Shown here: positions 3,601 through 62,249 of the stretch, in pieces | Position numbering within the stretch: position 1 is the first letter of the stretch | Layout of the letters: every line of letters starts with the position of its first letter | Origin: Ascidia mentula | Lineage: Eukaryota > Chordata > Ascidiacea > Phlebobranchia > Ascidiidae | Direction: 5' to 3' | NCBI GenBank assembly: GCA_947561715.1 | Contig: OX387204.1 | Coordinates: 6,639,001 to 6,703,000, forward strand | DNA: 64,000 nucleotides | Translations under genes and position numbers: made by a program | The notes under the pieces: generated by a model | The model's input: the letters and a program-made list of their open reading frames with translations, nothing else | Database searches by the model: none | What the model was told of the DNA's origin: nothing

Positions 3601-3796
3601 TAGATTTTCATATTCTGGCAACAAATAAATCTGAAACATACAATCGTTCGAAGTTTTGAGTAAACTGCGGATATTTTTCGTACAATCATTTAATATATTC
3701 AATTAAAACTAGAGTGCCATAAGCTACAATGAAATTGTTATGGATAATCTACTTGATCGCAGGAAGCTGTTTTGAAGAAAAATCTAGATTGTTACC

Positions 3797-9790: not shown

Positions 9791-9966
9791 ACAAATAAAT
9801 CTGAAACATACAATCGTTCGAAGTTTTGAGTAAACTGCAGATATGTTTCGTGCAATCATTTAATATATTCAATTAAAACTAGAGTGCCATAAGCTACAAT
9901 GAAATTGTTGTGGATAATCTACTTGATCGCAGGAAGCTGTTTTGAAGAAAAATCTAGATTGTTACC

Positions 9967-11249
9967 ATGGTGTGGTGTTAAAATGTGCATTGCCAGACAT
10001 GGAATGTCCCCAAATACCCACCGGTCAGTTGGCACTGGAGAAAATGAAAAGCTTTGGAAACAAGATTGCTGTAGTGGATCCCTACAAGGATCAATCGTGG
10101 ACTTTTACTCAACTCTACGAACAATCGATCGAGATGGCTCTTAAACTTCGCTCAATTGGCGTCAAAAAGAACGACTTTGTTAAATTGGTTCTTGATTTCA
10201 TTCCAAATCATTTCCAATATTAGTTGGTCTTTCATTGTGTAAAGCTGTAGCCGTCTGTGGTAATGTGAATGACAAAGCAAAATCTGCCGCAAAGCAAATC
10301 ATTCAAGTCGGGGCCAAGTTTTGCATCTGCGAAAGTTCGCAATTAAAACAGGAGCTTATGTTGGATGAAGATTTAAAATTAGTTGAGATTTTCTCTTTGC
10401 TCGAAGTGCAAAACCTTGTTGCAGAACGTGAAAAAAATGTGATGAAGGAAGTTTTGTCCACAGAAGGAATTGGTCTTTTTCAAGATACTCTGTGTATTAC
10501 ATTCACAAGCGGTTCAACAGGCGAACCCAGAGGAGTTGTAAATACCAATGCCAATTTCCTGGAATGGGATCACATTATCATTGGAAAGCTTGCATTTCCA
10601 ACATGGTGATTTCATGTTAACTTTGAGTATGCAGATAAACTCTGTTGGATATTTTAGCTTTTTTGTGCATTTAATCGCTGGCATTAAAGCATGTCGTCAC
10701 CACGACTCTCTCACCTGATTTTTTCGGTCAATGTGTAACTAAATGCTGCGTAACCGGAGCTGATATATGCGGGGTCGTCACAATGCGCCGAATGGCCTAC
10801 GAGTGTAATTTGGAAAGAAATTCAAGCTTGAAGTTCATAATGACGAATGGGTAACCGATACCAACGTATATCCTTCAAACAGCAAAGGAAAGGTTGAATG
10901 TGATAGTAACCCAGAAATACGGGCTTTCGGAATGTTGCTACATATCCTTCAGTGTTACAATACAAACACCTCTGGATAGCTCAGGATTGCTTTGTCCAAA
11001 TGTTCAACTTAAAGTTATCGATGTTGAAAGTGGTGTCGAACTGGGCCTGGAAAACATGGAGAACTCTGCGTCAAAAGTAAAAGTTGCTTTAAAGGATACT
11101 TACACGACCAGAAAGCAACCAGTGTGGTTATGAATGAATGCGATTGGCTTCGGACCGGAGACGTTGGTTATTATGATAAGGATGGCTGCGTTTATGTGAT
11201 AGAACGACTTAAAAATTCCATCAAGAGATTCGGCAGTATGTTCGTTTAA
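9967..11249 (+). pseudogene. Acyl-CoA ligase-like pseudogene, copy 2
   Basis: Same gene as at 3797, same motifs: TSGSTGEPRGV near 10510, YGLSECC near 10920, and the hinge VIERLKNSIKRFG near 11200. Its breaks differ from copy 1: a 5-bp duplication right after the ATG, loss of one T near 10195, an extra base near 10687, a stop at about 10852 where copy 1 has Ser, and shifts near 11045. It retains Gln where copy 1 has the first stop and Tyr where copy 1 has the last. The two copies therefore share the missing C-terminal subdomain but have otherwise decayed separately. Confidence 0.85.
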
Positions 11250-12904
11250 TGTGATAGGCTGGTGTGCCTAAGTATGAGTGTTGTGATTACAGAACTTTTT
11301 CAACAGTACGCAATTATTATGTTTCCATATTTGATCACAAAATAAATAACCTTACGGAGGCATTTGTTTTCTTCTTCCTCACGGTCTTTGGTACACACAA
11401 TAAGCGTGCATGTTTCCGAACGAAAATTGTATTTTGCTGATGTATCCAATAAATAAAAAAATATCACAATTCTTCATTGTTTATGTAAACACCAAGGTAT
11501 TTGATTAGATTATCTCATGTAGAATTAAAATAGAATGTTTTTCAGTTTACAGGCCAATCAGGTGCAGGAACATATTGTTTCCGAGATTTGTACAATTTTT
11601 CCTTCTGTAATCTACGGAATTGTGCAGCGAATTCCCAAATACTTGTTTTACATGTAAACAAGTTCGCATTCAAGCCCAGTCCACTGCGGTTGTTTAAAAT
11701 TTTCGGAATATTTCCACTTGAAGCGCACTTCTCACAACTTGGCCATGTCTCGTGATATATAATTGTTGGTCACGATCTGTCTGTGGTTGCCGTAAAGCGG
11801 AGTTGCAGAGGTTGCGTGCTGCTAACTGTAGGTTGCGGAATAATGTGCATAGTATGTTCGTTGTGTTTCACGTTTTGTGATTTGGATTTGGTCCCGTAGA
11901 ATGTAGGTCCGTAAAATCATACATTAGACCCGTAAGTTGTACACACGTTGTCTGTTTTTGTGTTGGTCTAAATGAGCTAATTGAGGGCCACAAAATATCT
12001 GGTCATGTCATGTTTAGGCAAGGAAACGTCAAAGCGAGCGTGCAAATGAAATTTTTGTAGTTTCAGAATAAATTTGACTTGATACGGTTGTATTGTGCCT
12101 GTAATATTCGAATAAAGTTTTTGAAATGCTTGTAAATGATAAAAAAAGCATAACTTTGTTGTATTGTAATTCGAGACTCGTGAGCAAATGTGACAACTGC
12201 GCTGTTTGCCTTGAGGTTTGCTGTATATGCTGTATGAGATTGATTATTTTCGAACGAGATTCGTGCTTTGGCACGCAGCTTTGTCACGTGCAAAGCAAAA
12301 TTTTTCAAGACACATTTGCTTTATTCCATCTTTTGCAAGCAGCCAACAAACGACCTGCATGTTGTTTGTTAAGTAAGACTACTTCCAATCACAGTTTATA
12401 CTGCTAAGATTTGTTCGAAACTGCCCGAATTTTGCTGGCATTGTTTAATTGTTTCATTGCAAAAGCACACGATAAGTATAATATAAAATATAAAGCATTA
12501 TGATGCATTTCTTGTAGGCCACATATATTTGTTAAAACATACCAAATTCCTTCACTGCAAATCCAGAATATATTTAGCAGCATGCAAATCAGACGTCGGA
12601 AACTATTTATGCAACGCGTTAACTTCTGTAGCTATTTTGCTAACGATCGCTTCGCTTTATTTTTTTCGTTTAGATTTTTGCGCTGTCCTCGGCCCGTTCA
12701 TCCACGACGTTATGAAAACTATGGATAACACAAAACGTTTGGAAGCGACACATGCTAAAAAGTTTTGTGACAGTTAGACTATCTTCAGTCTGCCAAGCAA
12801 AATCATCCGTCCCACAAGGTCTTGACAAATTGCAGAGTGCACATGTCTCTTATTCGCTAGGGTTAAAAACATTACATAGTGAAAAGATCAAAATACTGAA
12901 AATT
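11250..12904. other. Spacer spanning the unit 2/unit 3 junction
   Basis: Noncoding. The unit boundary is at 11845. Leader sequence is shared with units 1 and 2. No RNA gene or promoter motif I can defend. Confidence 0.6.
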
Positions 12905-28726: not shown

Positions 28727-31700
28727 ATGGGAAACTGTTTTGGATGCAGAAACCGTGCAGAGGTAAGACATTGGCTTGTAACTAGAGAGTGTTTATCTGT
28801 TATTTAACCTCGGATTTTATCACATTTAAATTTGTTTTAAAAATGTATGTTGTGGTTTCACATTAAGCTGCTAGGTTTTAACAAACCAAATGGTTTACTT
28901 TTGTATTGGTTTTCATCAGCAGGTGGATGATCGAGATACAAAGGCTATTGAAGTGGACGTCCATAGTGTCACCGATAATGTATGTTGTGGTTCACATTAA
29001 GCTGCTAGGTTTTAACAAACCAAATGGTTTACTTTTGTATTGGTTTTTATCAGCAGGTGGATGATCGAGATACAAAGGCTATTGAAGTGGACGTTCATAG
29101 TGTCACCGATAATGTATGTTGTGGTTCACATTAAGCTGCTAGGTTTTAACAAACCAAATGGTTTACTTTTGTATTGGTTTTCATCAGCAGGTGGATGATC
29201 GAGATACAAAGGCTATTGAAGTGGACGTCCATAGTGTCACCGATAATGTATGTTGTGGTTCACATTAAGCTGCTAGGTTTTAACAAACCAAATGGTTTAC
29301 TTTGGTATTGGTTTTTATTAGCAGATAGATGATCGAAATACAAAGGCTGTTGAAGTGGACGTTCATAGTGTCACCGATAATGTATGTTGTGGTTCACATT
29401 AAGCTGCTAGGTTTTAACAAACCAAATGGTTTACTTTTGTATTGGTTTTTATCAGCAGGTGGTTGATCGAGATACAAAGGCTATTGAAGTGGACGTTCAT
29501 AGTGTCACCGATAATGTATGTTGTGGTTCACATTAAGCTGCTAGGTTTTAACAAACCAAATGGTTTACTTTTGTGTTGGTTTTTATCAGCAGGTGGTTGA
29601 TCGAGATACAAAGGCTATAGAAGTGGACGTTCATAGTGTCACCGATAATGTATGTTGTGGTTCACATTAAGCTGCTAGGTTTTAACAAACCAAATGGTTT
29701 ACTTTTGTATTGGTTTTTATTAGCAGATGGTTGATCGAGATACAAAGGCTATTGAGGTGGACGTTCATAGTGTCACCGATAATGTATGTTGTGGTTCACA
29801 TTAAGCTGCTAGGTTTTAACAAACCAAATGGTTTACTTTTGTATTGTTTTTATTAGCAGATGGTTGATCGAGATACAAAGGCTATTGAGGTGGACGTTCA
29901 TAGTGTCACCGATAATGTATGTTGTGGTTCACATTAAGCTGCTAGGTTTTAACAAACCAAATGGTTTACTTTTGTATTGGTTTTTATTAGCAGATGGTTG
30001 ATCGAGATACAAAGGCTATTGAGGTGGACGTTCATAGTGTCACCGAAAATGTATGTTGTGGTTCACATTAAGCTGCTAGGTTTTAACAAACCAAATGGTT
30101 TACTTTTGTATTGGTTTTTATCAGCAGGTGGTTGATCGAGATACAAAGGCTATTGAGGTGGACGTTCATAGTGTCACCGATAATGTATGTTGTGGTTCAC
30201 ATTAAGCTGCTAGGTTTTAACAAACCAAATGGTTTACTTTTGTATTGGTTTTTATTAGCAGATGGTTGATCGAGATACAAAGGCTATTGAGGTGGACGTT
30301 CATAGTGTCACCGATAATGTATGTTGTGGTTCACATTAAGCTGCTAGGTTTTAACAAACCAAATGGTTTACTTTTGTATTGGTTTTTATCAGCAGATGGT
30401 TGATCGAGATACAAAGGCTATTGAGGTGGACGTTCATAGTGTCACCGAAAATGTATGTTGTGGTTCACATTAAGCTGCTAGGTTTTAACAAACCAAATGG
30501 TTTACTTTTGTATTGGTTTTTATCAGCAGATGGTTGATCGAGATACAAAGGCTATTGAGGTGGACGTTCATAGTGTCACCGAAAATGTATGTTGTGGTTC
30601 ACATTAAGCTGCTAGGTTTTAACAAACCAAATGGTTTACTTTTGTATTGGTTTTTATCAGCAGGTGGTTGATCGAGATACAAAGGCTATTGAAGTGGACG
30701 TTCATAGTGTCACCGATAATGTATGTTGTGGTTCACATTAAGCTGCTAGGTTTTAACAAACCAACTGGTTTACTTTTGTATTGGTTTTTATCAGCAGGTG
30801 GATGATCGAGATACAAAGGCTATTGAAGTGGACGTTCATAGTGTCACCGATAATGTATGTTGTGGTTCACATTAAGCTGCTAGGTTTTAACAAACCAAAT
30901 GGTTTACTTTTGTATTGGTTTTTATCAGCAGATGGTTGATCGAGATACAAAGGCTATTGAAGTGGACGTTCATAGTGTCACCGATAATGTATGTTGTGGT
31001 TCACATTAAGCTGCTAGGTTTTAACAAACCAAATGGTTTACTTTTGTATTGGTTTTTATCAGCAGGTGGTTGATCGAGATATAAAGACTGTTGAGGTGGA
31101 CGTTCATAGTGTCACCGATAATGTATGTTGTGGTTCACATTAAGCTGCTAGGTTTTAACAAACCAAATGGTTTACTTTTGTATTGGTTTTTTTTAGCAGG
31201 TAGATGATCGAGATACAAAGGCTATTGAAGTGGACGTTCATAGTGTCACCGATAATGTATGTTGTGGTTCACATTAAGCTGCTAGGTTTTAACAAACCAA
31301 CTGGTTTACTTTTGTATTGGTTTTTATCAGCAGGTAGATGATCGAGACACAAAGGCTATTGAAGTGGACGTTCATAGTGTCACCGATAATGTATGTTGTG
31401 GTTCACATTAAGCTGCTAGGTTTTAACAAACCAAATGGTTTACTTTTGTATTGGTTTTTATCAGCAGATGGTTGATCGAGAAACAAAGGCTATTGAAGTG
31501 GACGTTCATAGTGTCACCGATAATGTATGTTGTGGTTCACATTAAGCTGCTAGGTTTTAACAAACCAAATGGTTTACTTTTGTATTGGTTTTTATCAGCA
31601 GGTGGTTGAACGAGATATAAAGACTGTTGAGGTGGACGTTCATAGTGTCACCGATAATGTATGTTGTGGTTCACATTAAGCTGCTAGGTTTTAACAAACC

Positions 31701-34700
31701 AAATGGTTTACTTTTGTATTGGTTTTTTTAAGCAGGTAGATGATCGAGATACAAAGGCTATTGAAGTGGACGTTCATAGTGTCACCGATAATGTATATTG
31801 TGGTTCACATTAAGCTGCTAGGTTTTAACAAACCAAATGGTTTACTTTTGTATTGGTTTTTATTAGCAGATAGATGATCGAGATAAAAAGATTGCTGAAG
31901 TGGACGTTGATAGTGTCACCGAAAATGTATGTTGTGGTTCACATTAAGCTGCTAGGTTTTAACAAACCAAATGGTTTACTTTTGTATTGGTTTTTATCAG
32001 CAGGTGGATGATCAAGATATAAAGATTGCTGAAGTGGACGTTCATAGTGTCACCGAAAATGTATGCTGTGGTTCACATTAAGCTGCTAGGTTTTTGACAA
32101 ACCAAATGGTTTACTTTTGTATTGGTTTTTATCAGCAGGTGGATGATCGAGATATAAAGATTGCTGAAGTGGACGTTCATAGTGTCACCGAAAATGTATG
32201 TTGTGGTTCACATTAAGCTGCTAGGTTTTAACAAACTAAATGGTTTACTTTGGTATTGGTTTTTATCAGCAGGTGGATGATCGAGATATAAAGATTCTTG
32301 AAGAGGACTTTCATAGTGTCACCGAAAATGTATGTTGTGGTTCACATTAAGCTGCTGGGTTTTAACAAACCAAATGGTTGACTTTTGTATTGGTTTTTAT
32401 CAGCAGGTGGATGATCGAGATATAAAGATTCTTGAAGAGGACTTTCATAGTGTCACCGAAAATGTATGTTGTGGTTCACATTAAGCTGCTAGGTTTTAAC
32501 AAACCAAATGGTTGACTTTTGTATTGGTTTTTATCAGCAGGTGGATGATCGAGATATAAAGATTCTTGAAGAGGACTTTCATAGTGTCACCGAAAATGTA
32601 TGTTGTGGTTCACATTAAGCTGCTAGGTTTTAACAAACCAAATGGTTGACTTTTGTATTGGTTTTTATCAGCAGGTGGATGATCGAGATATAAAGATTGT
32701 TGAAATGGACGTTCATAGTGTCACCGAAAATGTATGTTGTGGTTCACATTAAGCTGCTGGGTTTTAACAAACCAAATGGTTGACTTTTGTATTGGTTTTT
32801 ATCAGCAGGTGGATGATCGAGATATAAAGATTGTTGAAATGGACGTTCATGGTGTCACCGAAAATGTATGTTGTGGTTCACATTAAGCTGCTGGGTTTTA
32901 ACAAACCAAATGTTTGACTTTTGTATTGGTTTTTATCAGCAGGTGGATGATCGAGATATAAAGATTCTTGAAGAGGACTTTCATAGTGTCACCGAAAATG
33001 TATGTTGTGGTTCACATTAAGCTGCTAGGTTTTAACAAACCAAATGGTTGACTTTTGTATTGGTTTTTATCAGCAGGTGGATGATCGAGATATAAAGATT
33101 CTTGAAGTGGACTTTCATAGTGTCACCGAAAATGTATGTTGTGGTTCACATTAAGCTGCTAGGTTTTAACAAACCAAATGGTTTACTTTTGTATTGGTTT
33201 TTATCAGCAGGTGGATGATCGAGATATAAAGATTCTTGAAGTGGACGTTCATAGTGTCACCGAAAATGTATGTTGTGGTTCACATTAAGCTGCTAGGTTT
33301 TAACAACACAAATGGTTTGCATTTGTATTGTTTTTTATTAGCAGATGGTTGATCGAGATATAAAGGCTATTGAAGTGGACGTTCATAGTGTCACCGAAAA
33401 TGTATGTTGTGGTTCACATTAAGCTGCTAGGTTTTAACAAACCAAATGGTTTACTTTTGTATTGGTTTTTATCAGCAGGTGGATGATCGAGATATAAAGA
33501 TTGTTGAGGTGGACGTTGATAGTGTCACCGAAAATGTATGTTGTGGTTCACATTAAGCTGCTAGGTTTTAACAAACCAAATGGTTTACTTTTGTATTGGT
33601 TTTTATCAGCAGGTGGATGATCGAGATACAAAGGCTATTGAAGTGGACGTTCATAGTGTCACCGAAAATGTATGTTGTGGTTCACATTAAGCTGCTAGGT
33701 TTTAACAAACCAAATGGTTTACTTTTGTATTGGTTTTTTTAGCAGATGGTTGATCGAGATACAAAGGCTATTGAAGTGGACGTTCATAGTGTCACCGAAA
33801 ATGTATGTTGTGGTTCACATTAAGCTGCTAGGTTTTAACAAACCAAATGGTTTACTTTTGTATTGGTTTTTATCAGCAGGTGGATGATCGAGATACAAAG
33901 GCTATTGAAGTGGACGTTCATAGTGTCACCGAAAATGTATGTTGTGGTTCACATTAAGCTGCTAGGTTTTAACAAACCAAATGGTTTACTTTTGTATTGG
34001 TTTTATTAGCAGATGGTTGATCGAGATATAAAGGCTATTGAAGTGGACGTTGATAGTGTCACTGAAAATGTATGTTGTGGTTCACATTAAGCTGCTAGGT
34101 TTTAACAAACCAAATGGTTTACTTTTGTATTGGTTTTTATTAGCAGATGGTTGATCGAGATATAAAGATTGTTGAGGTGGACGTTGATAGTGTCACTGAA
34201 AATGTATGTTGTGGTTCACATTAAGCTGCTAGGTTTTAACAAACCAAATGGTTTACTTTTGTATTGGTTTTTATCAGCAGGTGGATGATCGAGATACAAA
34301 GGCTATTGAAGTGGACGTTCATAGTGTCACCGATAATGTATGTTGTGGTTCACATTAAGCTGCTAGGTTTTAACAAACCAAATGGTTTACTTTTGTATTG
34401 GTTTTTATCAGCAGGTGGATGATCGAGATACAAAGGCTATTGAAGTGGACGTTCATAGTGTCACCGATAATGTATGTTGTGGTTCACATTAAGCTGCTAG
34501 GTTTTAACAAACCAAATGTTTTAATTTTGTGTTGGTTTTTATCAGCAGGTGGTTGATCGAGAGATAAAAGCTGCCGGCGACCAAACAAACGACGAGCTGG
34601 AGATGGTTTTGACAACCAAGGTAATATAGAAAGCCATTACCAAATCTCTCCGACATAAACATTCTTTTTCATAAAATTCTACTTTTGCAGATTGACACTG

Positions 34701-34980
34701 GGCTACAGCAAGAGAAGATGGCGCCCTCCACTGTTGTGGACCTTTTGTTTTCAGAGAACATTGGCGCCCTCTTCGAAACTCTTGATGAAGTTTTCGACCG
34801 AGTAAGTTTGATTATCTACATGTCGTATGACAAATATGTTATGGAAACGTAAACTAATTACAGAACATGGTCGGGAAATTACGTTTCCATAACATATTTG
34901 TCATACGACATGTAGATAATCAAACTTACTCGGTCGAAAACTTCATCAAGAGTTTCGAAGAGGGCGCCAATGTTCTCTGA
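28727..34980 (+). CDS. Repeat-exon gene A: lipidated N-terminus plus 42 19-residue repeats (3' end lost)
   Basis: Exon 1 28727-28762 codes MGNCFGCRNRAE: Gly2 with Cys4 and Cys7 is a classic context for myristoylation plus palmitoylation. Then 42 exons of 57 nt (first at 28923, last at 34415), each preceded by CAGCAG or TAGCAG and followed by GTATGT, each coding one 19-residue unit (consensus VDDRDTKAIEVDVHSVTDN; variant IKI..TEN). Then 34549-34620 (24 residues, VVDREIKAAGDQTNDELE start) and 34691-34801 (37 residues, ends LFETLDEVFDR). All exons are phase 0 at both ends and none contains a stop. The final exon starts at 34864 (NMVGK) but runs into the palindrome spacer and then antisense sequence, giving about 33 foreign residues and a stop at 34978. 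Family not recognised; membrane-inner-face location is inferred from the N-terminus. Confidence 0.75.
28923..34471 (+). repeat. 134-bp tandem array, 42 repeat exons (gene A)
   Basis: Period 134 bp: 57-bp exon plus 77-bp intron; three units are 133 and one 135. Introns are almost invariant and carry the dyad AAACCAAATGGTTT. Exon variants cluster: DTKAIE..TDN dominates units 1-22, DIKI..TEN units 23-33, mixed after that, which points to local block expansion. Substitutions leave frame and splice sites intact in every unit. Confidence 0.95.
34853..34878. other. Palindrome centre (26-bp spacer)
   Basis: The left arm ends ATGGAAACGTAA and the right arm begins TTACGTTTCCAT. The 26 bp between them belong to gene A: the end of its last intron (ACTAATTACAG) and the first 15 bases of its last exon (NMVGK). 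The same junction in intact copies (54410 and 62118) continues into the real last exon. Confidence 0.95.
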
Positions 34981-37900
34981 AAACAAAAGGTCCACAACAG
35001 TGGAGGGCGCCATCTTCTCTTGCTGTAGCCCAGTGTCAATCTGCAAAAGTAGAATTTTGTGAAAAAGAATGTTTATATCGGAGAGATTTGGTAATGGCTT
35101 TCTATATTACCTTGGTTGTCAAAACCATCTCCAGCTCGTCGTTTGTTTGGTCGCCGGCAGCTTTTATCTCTTGATCAACCATCTGCTAATAAAAACCAAC
35201 ACAAAAGTAAACCATTTGGTTTGTTAAAACCTAGCAGCTTAATGTGAACCACAACATACATTTTCGGTGACACTATGAACGTCCACTTCAAGAATCTTTA
35301 TATCTCGATCATCCACCTGCTGATAAAAACCAATACAAAAGTAAACCATTTGGTTTGTTAAAACCTAGCAGCTTAATGTGAACCACAACATACATTTTCG
35401 GTGACACTATGAAAGTCCACTTCAAGAATCTTTATATCTCGATCATCCACCTGCTGATAAAAACCAATACAAAAGTCAACCATTTGGTTTGTTAAAACCT
35501 AGCAGCTTAATGTGAACCACAACATACATTTTCGGTGACACTATGAAAGTCCACTTCAAGAATCTTTATATCTCGATCATCCACCTGCTGATAAAAACCA
35601 ATACAAAAGTCAACCATTTGGTGTGTTAAAACCTAGCAGCTTAATGTGAACCACAACATACATTTTCGGTGACACTATGAACGTCCACTTCAGCAATCTT
35701 TATATCTCGATCATCCACCTGCTGATAAAAACCAATACAAAAGTAAACCATTTGGTTTGTTAAAACCTAGCAGCTTAATGTGAACCACAACATACATTTT
35801 CGGTGACACTATGAACGTCCACTTCAGCAATCTTTATATCTCGATCATCCACCTGCTAATAAAAACCAACACAAAAGCAAACCATTTGGTTTGTTAAAAC
35901 CTAGCAGCTTAATGTGAACCACAACATACATTTTCGGTGACACTATGAACGTCCACTTCAGCAATCTTTATATCTCGATCATCCACCTGCTGATAAAAAC
36001 CAACACAAAAGTAAACCATTTGGTTTGTTAAAACCTAGCAGCTTAATGTGAACCACAACATACATTTTCGGTGACACTATGAACGTCCACTTCAACAGCC
36101 TTTGTATCTCGATCATCCACCTGCTGATAAAAACCAATACAAAAGTAAACCATTTGGTTTGTTAAAACCTAGCAGCTTAATGTGAACCACAACATACATT
36201 ATCGGTGACACTATGAACGTCCACTTCAACAATCTTTATATCTCGATCATCCACCTGCTGATAAAAACCAATACAAAAGTAAACCATTTGGTTTGTTAAA
36301 ACCTAGCAGCTTAATGTGAACCACAACATACATTATCGGTGACACTATGAACGTCCACTTCAACAATCTTTATATCTCGATCATCCACCTGCTGATAAAA
36401 ACCAACACAAAAGTAAACCATTTGGTTTGTTAAAACCTAGCAGCTTAATGTGAACCACAACATACATTTTCGGTGACACTATGAACGTCCACTTCAGCAA
36501 TCTTTATATCTCGATCATCCACCTGCTGATAAAAACCAACACAAAAGTAAACCATTTGGTTTGTTAAAACCTAGCAGCTTAATGTGAACCACAACATACA
36601 TTTTCGGTGACACTATGAACGTCCACTTCAGCAATCTTTATATCTCGATCATCCACCTGCTGATAAAAACCAATACAAAAGTAAACCATTTGGTTTGTTA
36701 AAACCTAGCAGCTTAATGTGAACCACAACATACATTTTCGGTGACACTATGAACGTCCACTTCAGCAATCTTTATATCTCGATCATCCACCTGCTGATAA
36801 AAACCAACACAAAAGTAAACCATTTGGTTTGTTAAAACCTAGCAGCTTAATGTGAACCACAACATACATTTTCGGTGACACTATGAACGTCCACTTCAAC
36901 AGCCTTTGTATCTCGATCATCCACCTGCTGATAAAAACCAATACAAAAGTAAACCATTTGGTTTGTTAAAACCTAGCAGCTTAATGTGAACCACAACATA
37001 CATTATCGGTGACACTATGAACGTCCACTTCAACAATCTTTATATCTCGATCATCCACCTGCTGATAAAAACCAATACAAAAGTAAACCATTTGGTTTGT
37101 TAAAACCTAGCAGCTTAATGTGAACCACAACATACATTATCGGTGACACTATGAACGTCCACTTCAACAATCTTTATATCTCGATCATCCACCTGCTGAT
37201 AAAAACCAATACAAAAGTAAACCATTTGGTTTGTTAAAACCTAGCAGCTTAATGTGAACCACAACATACATTATCGGTGACACTATGAACGTCCACTTCA
37301 ACAATCTTTATATCTCGATCATCCACCTGCTGATAAAAACCAATACAAAAGTAAACCATTTGGTTTGTTAAAACCTAGCAGCTTAATGTGAACCACAACA
37401 TACATTATCGGTGACACTATGAACGTCCACTTCAGCAATCTTTATATCTCGATCATCCACCTGCTGATAAAAACCAATACAAAAGTAAACCATTTGGTTT
37501 GTTAAAACCTAGCAGCTTAATGTGAACCACAACATACATTATCGGTGACACAATGAACGTCCACTTCAATAGCCTTTGTATCTCGATCAACCATCTGCTA
37601 AAAAAAAACAATACAAAAGTAAACCATTTGGTTTGTTAAAACCTAGCAGCTTAATGTGAACCACAACATACATTTTCGGTGACACTATCAACGTCCACCT
37701 CAACAATCTTTATATCTCGATCAACCATCTGCTAATAAAAACCAATACAAAAGTAAACCATTTGGTTTGTTAAAACCTAGCAGCTTAATGTGAACCACAA
37801 CATACATTTTCGGTGACACTATGAACGTCCACTTCAAGAATCTTTATATCTCGATCATCCACCTGCTGATAAAAACCAATACAAAAGTCAACCATTTGGT

Positions 37901-40738
37901 GTGTTAAAACCTAGCAGCTTAATGTGAACCACAACATACATTTTCGGTGACACTATGAACGTCCACTTCAGCAATCTTTATATCTCGATCATCCACCTGC
38001 TAATAAAAACCAACACAAAAGTAAACCATTTGGTTTGTTAAAACCTAGCAGCTTAATGTGAACCACAACATACATTTTCGGTGACACTATGAACGTCCAC
38101 TTCAGCAATCTTTATATCTCGATCATCCACCTGCTGATAAAAACCAACACAAAAGTAAACCATTTGGTTTGTTAAAACCTAGCAGCTTAATGTGAACCAC
38201 AACATACATTATCGGTGACACTATGAACGTCCACTTCAATAGCCTTTGTATCTCGATCAACCATCTGCTAAAAAAAACCAATACAAAAGTAAACCATTTG
38301 GTTTGTTAAAACCTAGCAGCTTAATGTGAACCACAACATACATTTTCGGTGACACTATCAACGTCCACCTCAACAATCTTTATATCTCGATCAACCATCT
38401 GCTAATAAAAACCAATACAAAAGTAAACCATTTGGTTTGTTAAAACCTAGCAGCTTAATGTGAACCACAACATACATTTTCGGTGACACTATGAACGTCC
38501 ACTTCAACAGCCTTTGTATCTCGATCATCCACCTGCTGATAAAAACCAATACAAAAGTAAACCATTTGGTTTGTTAAAACCTAGCAGCTTAATGTGAACC
38601 ACAACATACATTATCGGTGACACTATGAACGTCCACTTCAACAATCTTTATATCTCGATCATCCACCTGCTGATAAAAACCAATACAAAAGTAAACCATT
38701 TGGTTTGTTAAAACCTAGCAGCTTAATGTGAACCACAACATACATTATCGGTGACACTATGAACGTCCACTTCAACAATCTTTATATCTCGATCATCCAC
38801 CTGTTGATAAAAACCAATACAAAAGTAAACCATTTGGTTTGTTAAAACCTAGCAGCTTAATGTGAACCACAACATACATTATCGGTGACACTATGAACGT
38901 CCACTTCAACAATCTTTATATCTCGATCATCCACCTGTTGATAAAAACCAATACAAAAGTAAACCATTTGGTTTGTTAAAACCTAGCAGCTTAATGTGAA
39001 CCACAACATACATTATCGGTGACACTATCAACGTCCACCTCAACAATCTTTATATCTCGATCAACCATCTGCTAATAAAAACCAATACAAAAGTAAACCA
39101 TTTGGTTTGTTAAAACCTAGCAGCTTAATGTGAACCACAACATACATTATCGGTGACACTATGAACGTCCACTTCAACAATCTTTATATCTCGATCATCC
39201 ACCTGCTGATAAAAACCAATACAAAAGTAAACCATTTGGTTTGTTAAAACCTAGCAGCTTAATGTGAACCACAACATACATTTTCGGTGACACTATCAAC
39301 GTCCACCTCAACAATCTTTATATCTCGATCAACCATCTGCTAATAAAAACCAATACAAAAGTAAACCATTTGGTTTGTTAAAACCTAGCAGCTTAATGTG
39401 AACCACAACATACATTTTCGGTGACACTATGAACGTCCACTTCAACAGCCTTTGTATCTCGATCATCCACCTGCTGATAAAAACCAAAACAAAAGTAAAC
39501 CATTTGGTTTGTTAAAACCTAGCAGCTTAATGTGAACCACAACATACATTATCGGTGACACTATGAACGTCCACTTCAACAATCTTTATATCTCGATCAT
39601 CCACCTGCTGATAAAAACCAATACAAAAGTAAACCATTTGGTTTGTTAAAACCTAGCAGCTTAATGTGAACCACAACATACATTATCGGTGACACTATGA
39701 ACGTCCACTTCAACAATCTTTATATCTCGATCATCCACCTGCTGATAAAAACCAATACAAAAGTAAACCATTTGGTTTGTTAAAACCTAGCAGCTTAATG
39801 TGAACCACAACATACATTATCGGTGACACTATGAACGTCCACTTCAACAATCTTTATATCTCGATCATCCACCTGCTGATAAAAACCAATACAAAAGTAA
39901 ACCATTTGGTTTGTTAAAACCTAGCAGCTTAATGTGAACCACAACATACATTATCGGTGACACTATGAACGTCCACTTCAGCAATCTTTATATCTCGATC
40001 ATCCACCTGCTGATAAAAACCAATACAAAAGTAAACCATTTGGTTTGTTAAAACCTAGCAGCTTAATGTGAACCACAACATACATTATCGGTGACACTAT
40101 GAACGTCCGCTTCAATAGCCTTTGTATCTCGATCAACCATCTGCTAAAAAAAACCAATACAAAAGTAAACCATTTGGTTTGTTAAAACCTAGCAGCTTAA
40201 TGTGAACCACAACATACATTATCGGTGACACTATGGACGTCCACTTCAATAGCCTTTGTATCTCGATCATCCACCTGCTGATGAAAACCAATACAAAAGT
40301 AAACCATTTGGTTTGTTAAAACCTAGCAGCTTAATGTGAACCACAACATACATTATCGGTGACACTATGAACGTCCACTTCAATAGCCTTTGTATCTCGA
40401 TCATCCACCTGCTGATAAAAACCAATACAAAAGTAAACCATTTGGTTTGTTAAAACCTAGCAGCTTAATGTGAACCACAACATACATTATCGGTGACACT
40501 ATGGACGTCCACTTCAATAGCCTTTGTATCTCGATCATCCACCTGCTGATGAAAACCAATACAAAAGTAAACCATTTGGTTTGTTAAAACCTAGCAGCTT
40601 AATGTGAAACCACAACATACATTTTTAAAACAAATTTAAATGTGATAAAATCCGAGGTTAAATAACAGATAAACACTCTCTAGTTACAAGCCAATGTCTT
40701 ACCTCTGCACGGTTTCTGCATCCAAAACAGTTTCCCAT
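34879..40738 (-). CDS. Repeat-exon gene B: 40 repeats, minus strand (last exon absent)
   Basis: Mirror partner of gene A. Exon 1 40738-40703 (MGNCFGCRNRAE), 40 repeat exons between 40542 and 35260, then 35182-35111 (starts MVDQEIKAAGDQTNDELE) and 35040-34930 (same 37 residues). The last intron's acceptor and the final exon are missing because the palindrome turns here. If the last donor were not used, translation would add 16 residues and stop exactly at the arm edge (34881-34879). Genes A and B are convergent and their 3' parts are complementary. Same family and same inferred lipid anchor as A; it cannot make the normal C-terminus. Confidence 0.75.
35260..40542 (-). repeat. 134-bp tandem array, 40 repeat exons (gene B)
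   Basis: Unit boundaries fall at exact 134-bp steps: (40486-35260)/134 = 39 intervals. The order of exon variants differs from gene A (for example a run of IKIVEVDVHSVTDN units near 38590-38990 and 39550-39900), so the two arrays have been reshuffled since the inversion or were not copied whole. Confidence 0.95.
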
Positions 40739-42170: not shown

Positions 42171-42768
42171 TCAGCTTTCAATAACCTCCTCATATGAAGG
42201 TGGATGTGACTCGTAGCTTGAAGGAGACTGATAGATAGGATTGATGGGAGGTTGCCTTTCAATGTCTGTATGTACAGCGTCAATTGGTGCGCTCGGTGGC
42301 GCACAATCGTCATCCATATTGAACGACTGCATTTCTTGGCCTTCGTAACTTATAGTAGTTGCTGGGTGGACATGAGTAGGCAGAGTAATAACGTTGCCTC
42401 GCTGGACGACGAAAGGTTGTTGTTGAGATACAGGGTTTGCTGCTGATTGAGTATCTGGCGATCGAGTACGTGGTTTTCGCGGCTGACTGCGTAGAAACGC
42501 GAAGAAACCTCCACAAACCATGAGGAATCCCCCAGAACCGAGAGCAATTCCCATGACAAAAGATTCTCCGCTGGCAATGGGATACACTGCTCCAAAAATG
42601 CACAGAAAGCCCAGTATCATAAGCGAGATCCCGCTGTAGAATGCACAGTTGTCCCCTAAAAAAATAATGAAATGCGTTTAAAACGGTCAAAAAGTTAGAA
42701 ACTATCGACTTACTTTTCTTTTGTGTTGTGTTATTGTAACCCGCGCTTTGACCATAGGCGGGTGACAT
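42171..42768 (-). CDS. Family member 11, inverted copy
   Basis: Exon 1 42768-42714 and exon 2 42655-42171, the same lengths as the left copy (55 and 485 nt), phase 1; 179 residues. The predicted protein differs from the left copy at a single residue that I see (PPSYEEVIES instead of PPSYKEVIES). Splice sites, both hydrophobic stretches and PPSY are intact, so this is a second probably working copy unless the palindrome is an assembly product. Confidence 0.8.
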
Positions 42769-45321
42769 AGTTTGCTAAACCTTTTGTATTTTAATTAAAG
42801 GTTACTTAGAAAAAATAATGTCTGAATAAAGTGAAGTACAAGAAGAGTCAATGCTAGTAACTTGATTGAAGCCATGTGAATTGTTTGTTAATTCCGTTGT
42901 TACAAAAAACGTAGGCCTACGCTTTTCCTTCGAATTTAGTAATGTTAATGCTTGCGGTACAATGCTTTGTATGTTTTCTAGATAATTGCATCATTTCAGA
43001 CCTATCGTAATTTAATTGAAACCAAACACACGGCAATATGCATTATCTTATGTAGTTTAACTTACGCATACAATTGTAAAACATTATTTTAAACAGGTTG
43101 CCAATGTAACACAATGTGATATCCAAAATCATGTGAAGGAGATTAAACAGGAATTTACTACGTAAACAAACAGGCCAACAGAGACGATTTTTTTTTCAAA
43201 ACCACCCCAGGTTTTAACGACGTTTACGCCTCACGAAACCTCGCGTACCGACCAGACCTCGTGTGATTCACGCCACTGTTTGTTCGTTGCGTCATAGATT
43301 CAAAACAACACTTGCGCGTCACGTTTGTTAGAATGTAATTTTTCGTAACTTTCTCCTAACGCACTCGGAATCTACGACTTGTTACGGTTTTTTTGGAAAA
43401 AAATTCCTCAATGTAAGCCGTTGCCCGTGACATACGTGACACCAAATTCAAAATATATAAAAGCCCTAAGTTCCTGGAAATTTAGGACACTAAAACATTC
43501 ACAATACAAAATGCAACTATGAAATTAAAGTATAACCCATACGCTCACTTGGTAAGTTTTGCATAAACCAGTATTGTAACAGGCTGTGTAGTTACTGCGA
43601 AACCATTTGGTTTCCAGGGCGGAAATATGCTGCTACCCGTCATGGGTTCAATTTACATTCTACAGCAATTAAAACCAACTCTCAACCTGTCATGCTGCTA
43701 ATATATATTTACCGCAATTCTGAGAACTGCCTACATATGGCCACTATTCGACCTATATGAGGTCTCATCACTGTATAGCTTGGTGCGACTATATGCTAAA
43801 AAGTTTGCTAGTCCACTATAAATTAAATACAATCCCCCCGCACCTAAAGCGTCTCTTGTAGCTAGGTTTTCTGAGTCTTACCTGGAAGAAAGTCTGATAC
43901 AAATGGATGTTTGGCGAACGTGCGGAAATATTTGTCTAGTGAAGAAGGTATGCGACGAAGTGACGTAAGAGCGAAATGTTGTTCGGCCAGGTCACGTCAC
44001 TCGTCTGTTTACAGGGGTTTTCGTGATTTGCTTTCTCTTGGACATTCATGTCTCGTTTATTTTAAGAAATTTCAGGTTTACTGGTGTTTATTCTCGTAAC
44101 CAGTTCATACAAAATTAGACAAGGTCATTCAATAAATTGTGATATTTACCACAACAAATATCTTGACGTGGTTCACATGTTAAAAAACTTTGGATATTTC
44201 TTAGCAATTCACCAGTAAGTGATACTACAAATCGGGAGCGGATCCAAAAGCGAGCGATTGAGGATAAGTTTTGGTGGACTTCACCCTTTCTCATGTTGAA
44301 GAAAATCAGTGAGGCATGACCGTCAATTTTGCCACAGATGCGTCGGCAATTGCTGATAAAAGTTTAGGTGCTGAGTAGTTATGAAAACTTAGTTAAAAAC
44401 ATTACCAATATTCAGGTGCATTTTGCAGAAAAACTGGTCTCGCGCCTTAAGAAGTACGTTAATGTAAAATTGCTTTGACTAACCACTACGGCTGTTTTAA
44501 AGCGCATGTCGCTGTGGTTGTAGGATAACATCATTTGAACGCCCATTCTCAGCATTTAATGACCTCGGCACGTTATTTTTTTAGTTGGTGCCCGTTTGTG
44601 TTACGAATGGAAAGTATTGGAGTTGGCCAGCCGAAGTTGTCATTGCTGTTGAATTCTTAAAACTATGAACTCATTTTGCTTCGCGCAACAAATTATATAG
44701 TTGTTGTCTAACAGTTTGCCTTTTGGCTGTTGTGTATTCCTAACTCTTTTGAACATTTAACTGCAGTAAAGGGGGCGCTGTGTGTTGGAGTTCACAAGCT
44801 TTGCGCAAGTCACGCTCAGTCACAGTACATGCAGAGCAAGAAGTTGAGCTTGGCGTGCATTTCACCGTTAAACTGATAGAAACCGCGTTACCCTTTTTTC
44901 CTCAGATGTACGTATTGATGTAAGACCAAACTTAAACGGATCCGTTACTTTTTTTAACCACGCCGAGATTTGAACCAAGTATATCCTGGGCACGAATACC
45001 GATCAGATTTTTTTCTTGGTATATGGGTCGGGCGTTTTACCGATAAAAACAATTACATCATGGCCACCAAGCGGACACAAAAACAAACAAACAAACAGTT
45101 TTTGTTTTTATTAAACCAACTAAAGGGAATTGATCGACTTAGTACATGGCTTCGGCAGAAAAAAAAGGCGCAATGTGTTGAACTTTTGTGTTAGTTCAGA
45201 AACTAACAAAGCACCAGATAGATAAAAATAGGAACTTAACAATTTCGAAGTACAAGCAGAAAAGTAGTATAGTTATGGACAAATCCATTACCATGGTCGT
45301 CGCACCACAGAAAGTAGCAAC
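42769..45321. other. Spacer, right arm, with degenerate hammerhead-type repeat
   Basis: Inverted copy of 24106-26691 with more differences than nearer the centre. The hammerhead-like stretch is at about 43728-43775 (minus strand: GTGATGA, GACCTCATATAGGTC, GAA); the first core base is G rather than C. No gene seen. Confidence 0.5.
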
Positions 45322-45979
45322 TCAACTTGCCATCACTTCATTATATGATGGTGGCGCTTCTTCTTGGTTTGTTTGGAAAACAGTCTCATAGTTGGGATTG
45401 TTAAGTGGGAGACACTCTGCGCTTTGAAACCACCTCGCTTCTGTCAATGGTGGCGCTATGGCCCCTTGAACGTAGATAGTAGGATGCATTGCCTGACCAT
45501 GTGGTGTGTAACATATAGTTGTTGTCGGGTGTACATTTGTTGGGAGTTGTGCGACGTTGTCGTGTTGTTGCTGAAGTTGGGCAACCGCAGGTGAGCGTAA
45601 AGTACAGACGCCTGAGATGATGGAAATTGTTCCTCCCAAGACCATCCAGACAGCAAGAATGTATGAAAAGCCTATGGCTATGAATACTACAGCGCCCATA
45701 ACGACAACGATACCATATATCAATAAACTGGCTCCGCTGCAACGTTTACAAGTTTCTTCTGAAAAAAAAAGCAACGACAAGTTATTGTGCCATGAGATAT
45801 TCGAAAATCCTCGTTCGATACAGTGGACTTATAAACGTGACGTTTATGCATTTCGTTCAATTTGGCCAAAAGCAGAAAAAGGTCTGTGATTGACAGTTTC
45901 AATATAAAAGGGTCAAATTACATAACATTAAAATAGTACTTTCAAAAAGTACTACAAATTTACCGTTTTTGAGACTCAT
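45322..45979 (-). CDS. Family member 10, inverted copy
   Basis: Exon 1 45979-45964 (MSLKN plus one base), exon 2 45758-45322 (437 nt, same as left); phase 1; 150 residues. About five differences from the left copy, all in or near the membrane hairpin (CKRCSGASLLIYG here, CKRCCGAGLLIYG left; AVWMVLGG here, AFCMILGG left); the cytosolic tail and PPSYNEVMAS are identical. That contrast (variable hairpin, fixed tail) repeats between members 2 and 3. Confidence 0.75.
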
Positions 45980-46960
45980 TTTCTTGCAATTCTTGTTGCT
46001 GACGCAGTGGTATTTGTTATTGCAAACAACAGAAAGTTTTCTTACATCTAACAACTAAACTGGAATCTTGGAAGCATTGAAAGATTATTGTAATCGACAG
46101 ATGTGCGAGTGGACTATATGACCAGGCGGCATGCAGGAGGGGTTTAAGAGACCCTATTTCGAAAGGCTAACGAAAGTTCATCCAAATCTGTGACTGCGTT
46201 TGCAATAGCTTGAACAGAAAAAACATGTTTTTAGGACAGTGCAGTATTTTCCATGCAAATTTCTACCATCAGCTGGGATGTTCCCAAATACTTTGTGTCT
46301 TATCCATCTTAATCCTGCACTCCATGCACATCGTATCGTTTTTTACCTACTACACTATCATTTTTGTATGGCGAGATATTGATTTAGCGGCACAACCAAA
46401 AGGCTTCAAAATGACCTGAGCACCATATTCCAAACAAAGTTGCGATATTCCATTGTCTGCGCACTGAAAACATTGCAAACAATGGGTTGTATCTTGTTAC
46501 GCTACAAAGTATCAGCCATACCTCTCTCGCCAACTAGTGCACATTTTAACTGAACCGAAGCCAAATAAACTGTTCTTGGCTGCGAGGCACAAATAGGATT
46601 CTCCGACTAAAAACCTATGGCGGAACTTGTTGCTCGGTTGTCAACAGTATTAGATAAGATTCAAGGCATTACTCGATCTTTAGTACGTCTGTCAAGCAGC
46701 ATGCATTTTTTCAATTGGCAATATTCATTCTGCTACCAGATAATACTAACAAAAGCAAATTGTATTTAAGATTTTTTTATTGATATGTGAGTGGCACCAT
46801 TAAACGCAGCGGTGAGGCAAAAATGTTAAAATGAAAGATTTAGTACCAAAAATAAAAAAAAAAATTTCACCACGAAAAGGTTAAAAAAAGCAAACAAGAT
46901 ATGCTGTGTGTGACATTTTGGCTACACCTTTTTCGCTACAGCAGCGCAATACGTCAAGCC
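45980..46960. other. Spacer between members 10 and 9, right arm
   Basis: Inverted copy of 22403-23443, noticeably more diverged. No gene seen. Confidence 0.5.
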
Positions 46961-47475
46961 TTAACTAGCAATTGCTTCGTTATATGAAGGTGGAGCTTCT
47001 TCGAGATTTTTTTGCAAAACAGGCTTATAGTTGGGATTGATCGGTGGGTGACTCTGCGCTCCTTGAAACCTCTGCGCCTGTGTCGATGGTGGCGCTGTAG
47101 GGCACACGACTGCTTGAAGGTAGATATTGTGTTGCATTAGCTGACCCTGTGGAGTGTAACTTGTGCTTGAGGACGGAAGTAGATTTGCTGGGATGGTGAC
47201 GACGGTGCCTTGTTGAATCACAAAAGGCTGTTGCTGCTCAACCATAAAATCTTCATCCACATGCTGACGCTGTTCATTCAGTGGTGTGTGTTTTCGCTTT
47301 GGATCGCTACGGAATAACGTACAACAGCCTATGATGATGGCAATTAATCCTCCCAAGCCCATAGCGACACCGGCAATGTAAGAATCGCCCGTGGCTATGG
47401 GAATTATGGCGCCCATAATGGCAACAATGCCAAATACCAAAAATCCGGCTCCGCAACACAGTTTACAGGTTTCGT
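46961..47475 (-). pseudogene. Family member 9, inverted copy lacking its start exon
   Basis: Exon 2 (47475-46961, 515 nt) is open and ends EEAPPSYNEAIAS, but the palindrome boundary at 47623 cuts exon 1. The 3' part of exon 1 (down to the donor near 47593) is still present without the ATG. The only nearby ATG meets the intron in the wrong phase. About 19 of 159 aligned residues differ from the left copy, more than for the other two pairs. Unless a new first exon is used, this is a gene fragment. Confidence 0.65.
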
Positions 47476-47641
47476 CTGAAAAACAACAACAACAGCAGGG
47501 TTAGGTAATTTACTGAAATACTTCCCATGGTTTATTATGAAATACAGCAATATGACCAGTGCCGATACAAAAAAAACATTTGGACGTATTTACTTTTTTT
47601 TTGCGGAACATTTTCTTGTAATTGCTATAACATTAGTGTGA

Positions 47642-53238: not shown

Positions 53239-54542
53239 ATGGGAAACTGTTTTGGTTGCAGAAACCGTGCAGAGGTAAGACATTGGCTTGTAACTAGAGA
53301 GTGTTTATCTGTTATTTAACCTCGGATTTTATCACATTTAAATTTGTTTTAAAAATGTATGTTGTGGTTTCACATAGAGCTGCTAGGTTTTAACAAACCA
53401 AATGTTTTACTTTGGTATTGGTTTTTATTAGCAGATAGATGATCGAGATACAAAGGCTGTTGAAGTGGACGTTCATAGTGTCACCGATAATGTATGTTGT
53501 GGTTCACATTAAGCTGCTAGGTTTTAACAAACCAAATGGTTTACTTTTGTATTTTTTTTTTTTATTAGCAGATGGTTGATCGAGATACAAAGGCTATTGA
53601 AGTGGACGTTCATGGTGTCACCGATAATGTATGTTGTGGTTCACATTAAGCTGCTAGGTTTTAACAAACCAAATGGTTTACTTTTGTATTGGTTTTTATC
53701 AGCAGGTGGATGATCGAGATATAAAGATTGCTGAAGTGGACGTTCATAGTGTCACCGAAAATGTATGTTGTGGTTCACATTAAGCTGCTAGGTTTTAACA
53801 AACCAAATGGTTTACTTTTGTGTTGGTTTTTATCAGCAGGTGGATGATCGAGATATAAAGATTGCTGAAGTGGACGTTCATAGTGTCACCGAAAATGTAT
53901 GTTGTGGTTCACATTAAGCTGCTAGGTTTTAACAAACCAAATGGTTTACTTTTGTATTGGTTTTTATCAGCAGGTGGATGATCGAGATATAAAGATTCTT
54001 GAAGTGGACGTTCATAGTGTCACCGAAAATGTATGTTGTGGTTCACATTAAGCTGCTAGGTTTTAACAAACCAAATGGTTTACTTTTGTGTTGGTTTTTA
54101 TTAGCAGATGGTTGATCGAGAGATAAAAGCTGCCGGCGACCAAACAAACGACGAGCTGGAGATGGTTTTGACAACCAAGGTAATATGGAAAGCCATTACC
54201 AAATCTCTCCGATATAAACATTCTTTTTCATAAAATTCTACTTTTGCAGATTGACACTGGGCTACAGCAAGAGAAGATGGCGCCCTCCACTGTTGTGGAC
54301 CTTTTGTTTTCAGAGAACATTGGCGCCCTTTTCGAAACTCTTGATGAAGTTTTCGACCGAGTAAGTTTGATTATCTACATGTCGTATGACAAATATGTTA
54401 TGGAAACGTAAACTAATTACAGAACATGGTCGGGAAATCCATGATCGGGTTGTATGGAGGCAACAGCAAAGGAATGATAATTGATCTTGACGATCAACTG
54501 CTCAACGAGTTGGACAACCTCCCTGTAGCCCAGAGAGTCTAA
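53239..54542 (+). CDS. Repeat-exon gene C: complete, 5 repeats
   Basis: Exons: 53239-53274 (MGNCFGCRNRAE); five 57-nt repeat exons starting 53435, 53572, 53706, 53840, 53974; 54108-54179 (MVDREIKAAGDQTNDELE start, 24 residues); 54250-54360 (37 residues, MAPSTVVDLLFSENIGALFE core); 54423-54542 (NMVGKSMIGLYGG to LDNLPVAQRV, stop TAA). All junctions are GT-AG and phase 0; 207 residues. Lipid-anchored N-terminus inferred from Gly2/Cys4/Cys7. The repeats are acidic and polar, without hydrophobic segments; the C-terminal part is acidic with Leu at helix-like spacing. AATAAA at 54610-54615. No family recognised. This copy defines the normal 3' end that genes A and B lack. Confidence 0.85.
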
Positions 54543-59526: not shown

Positions 59527-59572
59527 ATTCTATTTGAATAAGGTTTTAGTTGCAAAACGCGAAATAGTTTGT
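59527..59572 (+). ncRNA. Spliced-leader RNA-like sequence (unit B)
   Basis: Exact duplicate of 52089-52134, including the 16-nt leader at 59527-59542 and the GTTTT/AAAAC hairpin. Same interpretation and doubts. Confidence 0.55.
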
Positions 59573-60680: not shown

Positions 60681-62249
60681 ATGGGAAACTGTTTTGGATG
60701 CAGAAACCGTGCAGAGGTAAGACATTGGCTTGTAACTAGAGAGTGTTTATCTGTTATTTAACCTCGGATTTTATCACATTTAAATTTGTTTTAAAAATGT
60801 ATGTTGTGGTTTCACATAGAGCTGCTAGGTTTTAACAAACCAAATGGTTTACTTTTGTATTGGTTTTTATCAGCAGGTGGATGATCGAGATACAAAGGCT
60901 ATTGAAGTGGACGTTCATAGTGTCACCGATAATGTATGTTGTGGTTCACATTAAGCTGCTAGGTTTTAACAAACCAAATGGTTTACTTTTGTATTGGTTT
61001 TTATCAGCAGGTGGATGATCGAGATACAAAGGCTATTGAAGTGGACGTTCATAGTGTCACCGATAATGTATGTTGTGGTTCACATTACGCTTCTAGGTTT
61101 TAACAAACCAAATGGTTTACTTTTGTATTGGTTTTTATCAGCAGGTGGATGATCGAGATACAAAGGCTATTGAAGTGGACGTTCATAGTGTCACCGATAA
61201 TGTAGGTTGTGGTTCACATTAAGCTGCTAGGTTTTAACATACCAAATGGTTTACTTTTGTATTGGTTTTTATCAGCAGGTGGATGATCGAGATACAAAGG
61301 CTATTGAAGTGGACGTTCATAGTGTCACCGATAATGTATGTTGTGGTTCACATTAAGCTGCTAGGTTTTAACAAACCAAATGGTTTACTTTTGTATTGGT
61401 TTTTATCAGCAGGTGGATGATCGAGATACAAAGGCTATTGAAGTGGACTTTCATAGTGTCACCGATAATGTATGTTGTGGTTCACATTAAGCTGCTAGGT
61501 TTTAACATACCAAATGGTTTACTTTTGTATTGGTTTTTATCAGCAGGTGGATTATCGAGATATCAAGACTGTTGAAGTGGACGTTCATAGTGTCACCGAT
61601 AATGTATGTTGTGGTTCACATTAAGCTGCTAGGTTTTAACATACCAAATGGTTTACTTTTGTATTGGTTTTTATCAGCAGGTGGATTATCGAGATATCAA
61701 GACTGTTGAAGTGGACGTTCATAGTGTCACCAATAATGTATGTTGTGGTTCACATTAAGCTGCTAGGTTTTAACAAACCAAATGTTTTAATTTTGTGTTG
61801 GTTTTTATCAGCAGGTGGATGATCGAGAGATAAAAGCTGCCGGCGACCAAACAAACGACGAGCTGGAGATGGTTTTGACAACCAAGGTAATACAGAAAGC
61901 CATTACCAAACTTCTCCGATATAAACATTCTTTTTCCTAAAATTCTACTTTTGCAGATTGACACTGGGCTACAGCAAGAGAAGATGGCGCCCTCCACTGT
62001 TGTGGACATTTTGCTTTCAGAGAACATTGGCGCCCTCTTCGAAACTCTTGATGATGTTTTCGACCGAGTAAGTTTGATTATCTACATGTCGTATGACAAA
62101 TATGTTATGGAAACGTAAACTAATTACAGAACATGGTCGGGAACTCAATGATCGGGTTGTATGGAGGCAACAGCAAAGGAATGATAATTGATCTTGACGA
62201 TCAACTGCTCAACGAGTTGGACAACCTCCCTGTAGCCCAGAGAGTCTAA
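60681..62249 (+). CDS. Repeat-exon gene D: complete, 7 repeats
   Basis: Exons: 60681-60716 (MGNCFGCRNRAE); seven 57-nt repeats starting 60877, 61011, 61145, 61279, 61413, 61547, 61681; 61815-61886 (24 residues, VDDREIKAAGDQTNDELE start); 61957-62067 (37 residues); 62130-62249 (NMVGNSMIGLYGG to VAQRV, stop). All phase 0; 245 residues. Differs from gene C by repeat number and by replacements in the C-terminal exons (DLLFSEN to DILLSEN, DEVFDR to DDVFDR, GKSM to GNSM). Repeat units 6 and 7 share VDYRDIKTVEVDVHSVT, a local duplication. One donor is GTAGGT instead of GTATGT. AATAAA near 62327. Confidence 0.85.

Follow-up and report, generated by a model that had tools for sequence, protein, structure and literature searches.

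Arrays of up to 42 putative hybrid exons in genes of a presumed tunicate family

Schistosome micro-exon genes are described as having many small symmetrical exons that form most of the coding region, and their products as carrying a signal peptide (PMC4350168). In the spider silk gene Argiope MaSp2, the introns are reported to be 97.6% identical on average within the gene, and unequal crossing over has been proposed as the homogeniser (PMC9779670). For teleost piccolo b, the published account gives a zinc-finger exon in 8-16 copies, in frame 0 at both ends, with single gains and losses that are likely due to unequal crossovers (PMC3484663).

The locus reported here lies in a window of 64,000 nucleotides, by which we mean the whole stretch of DNA that was analysed. 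The preliminary description had seen a single array of 57-nt exons. That array exists, in what we call gene 1, but it is one of four in the window (TRF): gene 1 (plus strand) has 42 repeat exons, gene 2 (minus strand) has 40, gene 3 (plus strand) has 5, and gene 4 (plus strand) has 7. Exon 1 lies upstream of the array, and exon 5-type and exon 6-type exons lie downstream of it, in 4/4 of these genes. We consider it probable that they belong to a tunicate family of seven-exon genes in which a hybrid of exons 5 and 4 has been multiplied, and that they would encode an acidic, lipid-anchored repeat protein. The features, in window coordinates, are the following.

28727..28762, plus strand: exon 1 of gene 1 (MGNCFGCRNRAE), placed by sequence likeness
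28923..34471, plus strand: repeat array of gene 1, 42 exons (57 nt each) separated by introns of 76-78 nt, from TRF and unit parsing
34549..34620, plus strand: exon 5-type of gene 1 (VVDREIKAAGDQTNDELEMVLTTK)
34691..34801, plus strand: exon 6-type of gene 1 (IDTGLQQEK...VFDR)
34853..34878, no strand: palindrome centre, a 26-base spacer within the last intron and exon of gene 1, from the sequence, borders set by eye
34864..34980, plus strand: chimeric last exon of gene 1, 15 nt of the true exon 7 followed by gene 2 antisense to a stop
34930..35040, minus strand: exon 6-type of gene 2, with no exon 7 found beyond it
35111..35182, minus strand: exon 5-type of gene 2 (MVDQEIKAAGD...)
35260..40542, minus strand: repeat array of gene 2, 40 exons of 57 nt
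40703..40738, minus strand: exon 1 of gene 2
53239..53274, plus strand: exon 1 of gene 3
53435..54030, plus strand: repeat array of gene 3, 5 exons of 57 nt
54108..54179, plus strand: exon 5-type of gene 3
54250..54360, plus strand: exon 6-type of gene 3
54423..54542, plus strand: exon 7 of gene 3, with stop (NMVGKSMIGLYGG...VAQRV)
60681..60716, plus strand: exon 1 of gene 4
60877..61737, plus strand: repeat array of gene 4, 7 exons of 57 nt
61815..61886, plus strand: exon 5-type of gene 4
61957..62067, plus strand: exon 6-type of gene 4
62130..62249, plus strand: exon 7 of gene 4, with stop

The exons claimed for the gene 1 array were confirmed: all 42 are 57 nt long and in phase 0, with AG before and GT after 42/42 and in-frame stops in 0/42. 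The claimed spacing of 134 bp holds for 37 of the 41 steps, the others being 133 bp (three) and 135 bp (one). The array scores 9986 in TRF, and the gene 1 model, 46 exons in total, gives 871 open codons through to exon 6 when spliced in silico; the longest sense frame of the unspliced stretch is 62 codons. The 42 intact frames belong to mutual copies and so are not independent events; taken alone, they are weak evidence. Pooled statistics were drawn from five arrays, the four of the window and one on another contig (C71), with 104 exons and 99 inter-repeat introns. Stops occur in 0/104 of these exons, which comprise 41 distinct sequences; with units spaced 133-137 apart, no exon can have been missed or shifted. 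The inter-repeat introns, 32 of them distinct, are 77 nt long in 94/99 cases and otherwise 76, 78 or 80 nt; if retained, every one of the 99 would bring in an in-frame stop. As the exons are read here, that any subset of them keeps the frame follows from arithmetic. On these signals, all repeats would be transcribed and spliced. If the 42-exon gene is indeed transcribed, it would put chordate splicing to an extreme test, with 46 exons and inter-repeat introns of 76-78 nt.

A likeness to schistosome micro-exon genes, drawn in the preliminary description, holds for exon symmetry but not for the N-terminus or the phylum. As in those genes, most of the coding region lies in small symmetrical exons, here 42 (and 40, 5 and 7) of them. 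The exons of micro-exon genes reach about 36 nt, and those of the arrays are longer at 57 nt. In a Kyte-Doolittle scan (11 residues, first 40), the best mean hydropathy was 0.34-1.09 in the 5 of 14 genes scanned, compared with 2.81 for a transmembrane protein of the window used as a control, and a hydrophobic signal-like N-terminus is absent in these five. In further contrast, the host is no platyhelminth, and the exons are near-identical copies of one 57-nt unit. Membership among the micro-exon genes is rejected for want of a signal-like N-terminus and for the wrong phylum, so on these two features.

The host is taken to be a tunicate from its copies of the spliced leader plus GT. The sequence ATTCTATTTGAATAAGGT, the first 16 bases of which are the Ciona intestinalis spliced leader (PMC7986045), occurs 1,830 times in the genome as an exact match, and its reversed control occurs 0 times. 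An exact copy of the leader plus GT lies at 59527-59544 of the window, between genes 3 and 4. Rows of the spliced leader also stand on C1:15239664-15315846, with a period of about 719-720 bp; the unit described for C. intestinalis is 264 bp (PMC7986045). The voltage-sensing phosphatase gave no pointer to a species: a 62-residue frame scored 75 bits against TPTE2 and a similar 73 bits against voltage-sensor phosphatases of the PDB.

Like the spider silk genes as described (flagelliform, Argiope MaSp2), the array genes have a unit of exon plus intron, near-identical introns and short unique ends. The coding repeats of spider silk are described as highly homogenised, whereas here the exons vary 4.4 times more than the introns, and the unit is 57 + 77 nt, with a birth from two ancestral exons that can be read from relatives. 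The likeness is one of architecture only, and a sequence relation is not expected. Piccolo b is a different protein from that of the array genes, and there an exon that already existed (702-1350 bp in zebrafish) is reported to have been multiplied as a whole, whereas here a new, apparently hybrid exon is present in 5-42 copies. Shared with spidroin and piccolo b are a unit of exon and intron with internal splice sites, seen as sequence signals, and homogenised introns, with a pairwise diversity of 0.0195 (94 introns of 77 nt; the five of other lengths were left out). By analogy, the array genes work as do spider silk genes and teleost piccolo b, with homogenised arrays of exons and introns.

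Relatives of the array genes were sought by a genome search with exons 5-7, which located them at C72:7.30-7.32 Mb, C72:8.25-8.27 Mb and C2:14.98 Mb. A second genome search, from the distant side and with a donor-site pattern, gave no further gene; its weak match on C71 had an E of 0.008 and one stop. Ten array-less relatives with exon 1, three near and seven distant, are present in the same genome, along with two broken family remnants at C72 7.30 Mb. Nine of the ten have seven coding exons, in which every exon is a multiple of three and every intron is GT..AG. The tenth, far5 (L032:7494-7262, minus strand), has two copies of exon 3, each a multiple of three in length, and its exon 4 is shortened; it is a second internal exon duplication within the family. 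Since array-less genes stand on both the near and the distant branches, the array is the derived state, and an ancestral array is ruled out by the ten genes, near and distant, that lack one at three places.

Constraint was assessed in eight pairs among nine array-less genes (far5 was left out) and in six pairs that matched genes 3 and 4 with three of those nine. Near and distant copies differ by a dN of 0.43-0.46 and a dS of 1.27-1.60 (three pairs; dS near saturation), distant copies and the C2 copy by a dN of about 0.07 and a dS of 0.29-0.34 (two pairs), and genes 3 and 4 from near1 and near3, over exons 1, 5, 6 and 7 only, by a dN of 0.09-0.12 and a dS of 0.15-0.26 (four pairs). For gene 3 against far1, dS was not computable. 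The youngest pairs show little constraint (near1/near2, dN 0.031 and dS 0.044; far1/far2, dN 0.041 and dS 0.062). Judged from dN/dS between near and distant copies, there is protein constraint in the family. When these copies are aligned with cheap gaps, 0.58-0.82 of intron columns and 0.52-0.72 of exon columns are alike; introns are no less alike than exons, which leaves dN/dS and frame to carry the coding case. That the protein is unlike any known family, as had been claimed, agrees with a Pfam scan of the gene 3 protein, near3 and far1, in which no family rose above the cut-off, and a PDB sequence search with far1 gave a best match of only E 0.19. Searches of open-access papers turned up no such tunicate gene; most subscription papers were outside their reach.

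Comparison with near3 points to the source of the repeated exon. The first 25 nt of the 57-nt exon have their best match in near3 at the first base of exon 5 (20/25), where the best of 100 shuffled near3 loci reached 16. The last 32 nt have their best match ending at the end of exon 4, with 29/32 and one 18-nt gap (best of 100 shuffles, 21). By sequence comparison, then, the exon for the 19-residue repeat opens with some 25 nt from the start of ancestral exon 5 and closes with the final 32 nt of exon 4, 18 nt having been deleted. The inter-unit intron resembles intron 4 of near3, both being 77 nt long, and ancestral intron 4 flanks the hybrid exon on both sides. Intron 1 of the array genes starts like ancestral intron 1, continues with the last bases of exon 4 and then becomes intron 4, so exons 2 and 3 were lost with that deletion. 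The ancestor of the family would have had seven short phase-0 coding exons. A tandem duplication with breaks in exon 5 and exon 4 would have created the 57-nt hybrid exon together with a whole intron 4; exons 2 and 3 have dropped out, and exon 1 is linked to the repeats by the fused intron 1/intron 4 that is visible in the sequence. Each unit has its own acceptor and donor and a phase-0 exon divisible by three, so units are exchangeable without loss of frame. Unequal exchange could then add or remove whole 134-bp units with the frame unbroken, as array sizes and neighbour likeness suggest. One genome would show the state before an exon array was born and the state after it, in ten array-less relatives, four array genes and a displaced block, which makes the start and expansion of short repeated exons directly testable.

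The introns had been held to be as uniform as the exons, and this is not the case: pairwise diversity is 0.0195 among the 94 introns of 77 nt and 0.0854 among the 104 exons. Gene 1 alone gives 0.0218 for introns and 0.0942 for exons. The 4.4-fold greater variation of the repeat exons comes mainly through residue changes. Sites with a minor share of at least 8% number 12/57 in the exons and 3/77 in the introns of gene 1, and 10/57 and 2/77 in those of gene 2. Variants common at 8% or more make up 10 of the 23 residue-changing ones and 4 of the 34 silent and intron ones (Fisher p = 0.011; 0.020 with a cut-off of 5% and 0.004 with 10%), and several common variants cluster at the hybrid junction, codons 6-9. 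Rank tests on all variant frequencies were not significant (p = 0.36, residue-changing against silent and intron variants together). Variant density per site in the arrays is 0.51 for residue-changing and 0.65 for silent variants; with the former about as dense as the latter, there is no evidence of purifying selection on the repeats themselves. Diversifying selection on repeat residues is possible from this pattern.

Unequal exchange had been offered as a reason for uniformity, and signs of local exchange appear in the order of the units. In a test on edit distances between units with 2000 order permutations, neighbouring units were more alike than shuffled ones (0/2000 permutations as extreme in gene 1, 9/2000 in gene 2). 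One four-unit block occurs twice in gene 2, and the close paralogues have unit counts of 5, 7, 40 and 42. The neighbour likeness and the duplicated block are consistent with unequal exchange; other copying mechanisms are compatible with them as well.

The window contains a large inverted duplication at 21738-47623, centred at ~34,865, and a direct duplication of 6.5 kb, 98.4% identical, that holds the 5' parts of genes 3 and 4. Genes 1 and 2 are joined tail to tail by a palindrome, which removes the true last exon. In gene 1, exon 6 is followed by its intron, 15 nt of exon 7 and the inverted copy from ~34,879. The end first proposed for the gene, 34980, is a stop in a chimeric tail: past those 15 nt the reading continues antisense in the inverted copy. 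A full exon 7 for genes 1 and 2 was not found in the window, where it is present only for genes 3 and 4. Genes 1 and 2 are without their true last exon, which leaves the genes with 5 and 7 repeats as the complete ones, with predicted proteins of 207 aa (gene 3) and 245 aa (gene 4). The two longest arrays thus sit in genes from which a normal protein may not be made.

We give a real chance, though one short of even, to an alternative in which genes 1 and 2 are non-functional and only genes 3 and 4 work, whether the cause is a real inverted duplication or a haplotype assembly product. In its assembly version, the palindrome, and perhaps also the duplication of genes 3 and 4, would come from two merged haplotypes. 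An exon 7 that belongs to genes 3 and 4 only favours this alternative, as does a palindrome centre that is a 26-base spacer inside the last intron and exon of gene 1. Between the palindrome arms there are 9 differences in 2,140 aligned bases next to the arrays and 23 in 395 in the outermost 400-column window; divergences of this size, like that between the 6.5-kb copies at genes 3 and 4, fall within the range of tunicate heterozygosity and speak for an assembly product. However, the window contains no N, the junction is resolved to base level, and the two arrays differ in the number (42, 40) and order of their units, which excludes a simple fold-back of one molecule. All 82 exons of genes 1 and 2 are open, which counts against loss of function, though few independent mutations make that argument weak. 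Gene 1 has 35 distinct intron-exon units and gene 2 has 21, with only 4 common to both; set against the 9 differences in 2,140 flanking bases, this means that the arrays turned over faster than their near flanks, or that the flanks were converted. Read-through transcripts of genes 1 and 2 could make a very long double strand.

As for the product, MGNCF[G/A] stands at the start of 14/14 genes in which exon 1 was found, by likeness to exon 1 templates. The rule for N-myristoylation and palmitoylation lies behind the reading of MGNCF as a lipid anchor, and on this motif the protein would be lipid-anchored in the cytosol. The predicted array protein is acidic, with a calculated pI of about 4.2. 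The repeats might form a variable-length spacer or a multivalent segment ahead of the conserved C-terminal region; this is the weakest step of our account, and from the sequence we propose it with considerable doubt.

We find it unlikely that the array exists for regulated exon choice, with many length isoforms made by skipping, as has been proposed for schistosome micro-exon genes. The idea draws on repeat exons that are all 57 nt long and in phase 0, so that any subset is frame-safe, and on CAGCAG or TAGCAG, a tandem acceptor, just before 101/104 of them, which could add one extra glutamine per exon. Skipping, however, would alter mostly length, and with repeat exons and introns so similar there is no obvious feature by which one could be chosen over another. 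The exons of array-less relatives are also multiples of three; phase-0 symmetry was inherited from array-less ancestors and is no sign of selection for skipping.

Units also occur away from the genes. A genome search with the unit gave at least 10 copies on C71, with partial matches near C72:7.31-7.32 Mb, both as lower bounds. The C71 insert (L012:1-1352, minus strand, with the adjoining end of L011) is 1,352 bp long, that is, ten units and 12 bases, of which one or two are perhaps from the target, and both of its ends fall at the same place of the unit. It interrupts a copy of an integrase-like gene, a stretch with 22 genome matches, the C71 copy included. An intact relative of the target, a 393-residue frame in L048 with an integrase core (PF24764, Pfam, E 1.3e-15), is 73% alike to it over the matched residues of the 50 searched, and by comparison about a dozen target residues seem lost at the insert. 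Family exons were looked for in 15 kb around the block and none was found. The displaced block implies that the units are as movable as other tandem DNA. That the array is a satellite with no coding role, lying between gene pieces by chance, is suggested by this block, but it is hardly credible and we reject it: the unit is two exons and an intron of a family with protein constraint between distant copies, 94/94 window exons keep frame, AG and GT, and family exons flank the array in 4/4 genes.

A further-reaching idea is that the frame-safe hybrid unit spreads within genes and leaves them as a block, with residue variation among repeats kept or favoured and the introns remaining uniform. We consider this improbable. 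If it is true, the product would be a lipid-anchored protein that changes length fast and varies between individuals.

The window has other features outside the array genes. Short proteins encoded by single ORFs, with hydrophobic stretches and PPSY/PPAY motifs at the C-terminus, cluster at 6947-27289 and 42171-47500; in a Pfam scan of four of these proteins and two neighbouring ORFs without the motif, none matched at the cut-off. A direct duplication of 4.6 kb, 96.5% identical, lies at 1872-6411 and 8038-12593, and its first copy includes a fragment of an AMP-binding enzyme.
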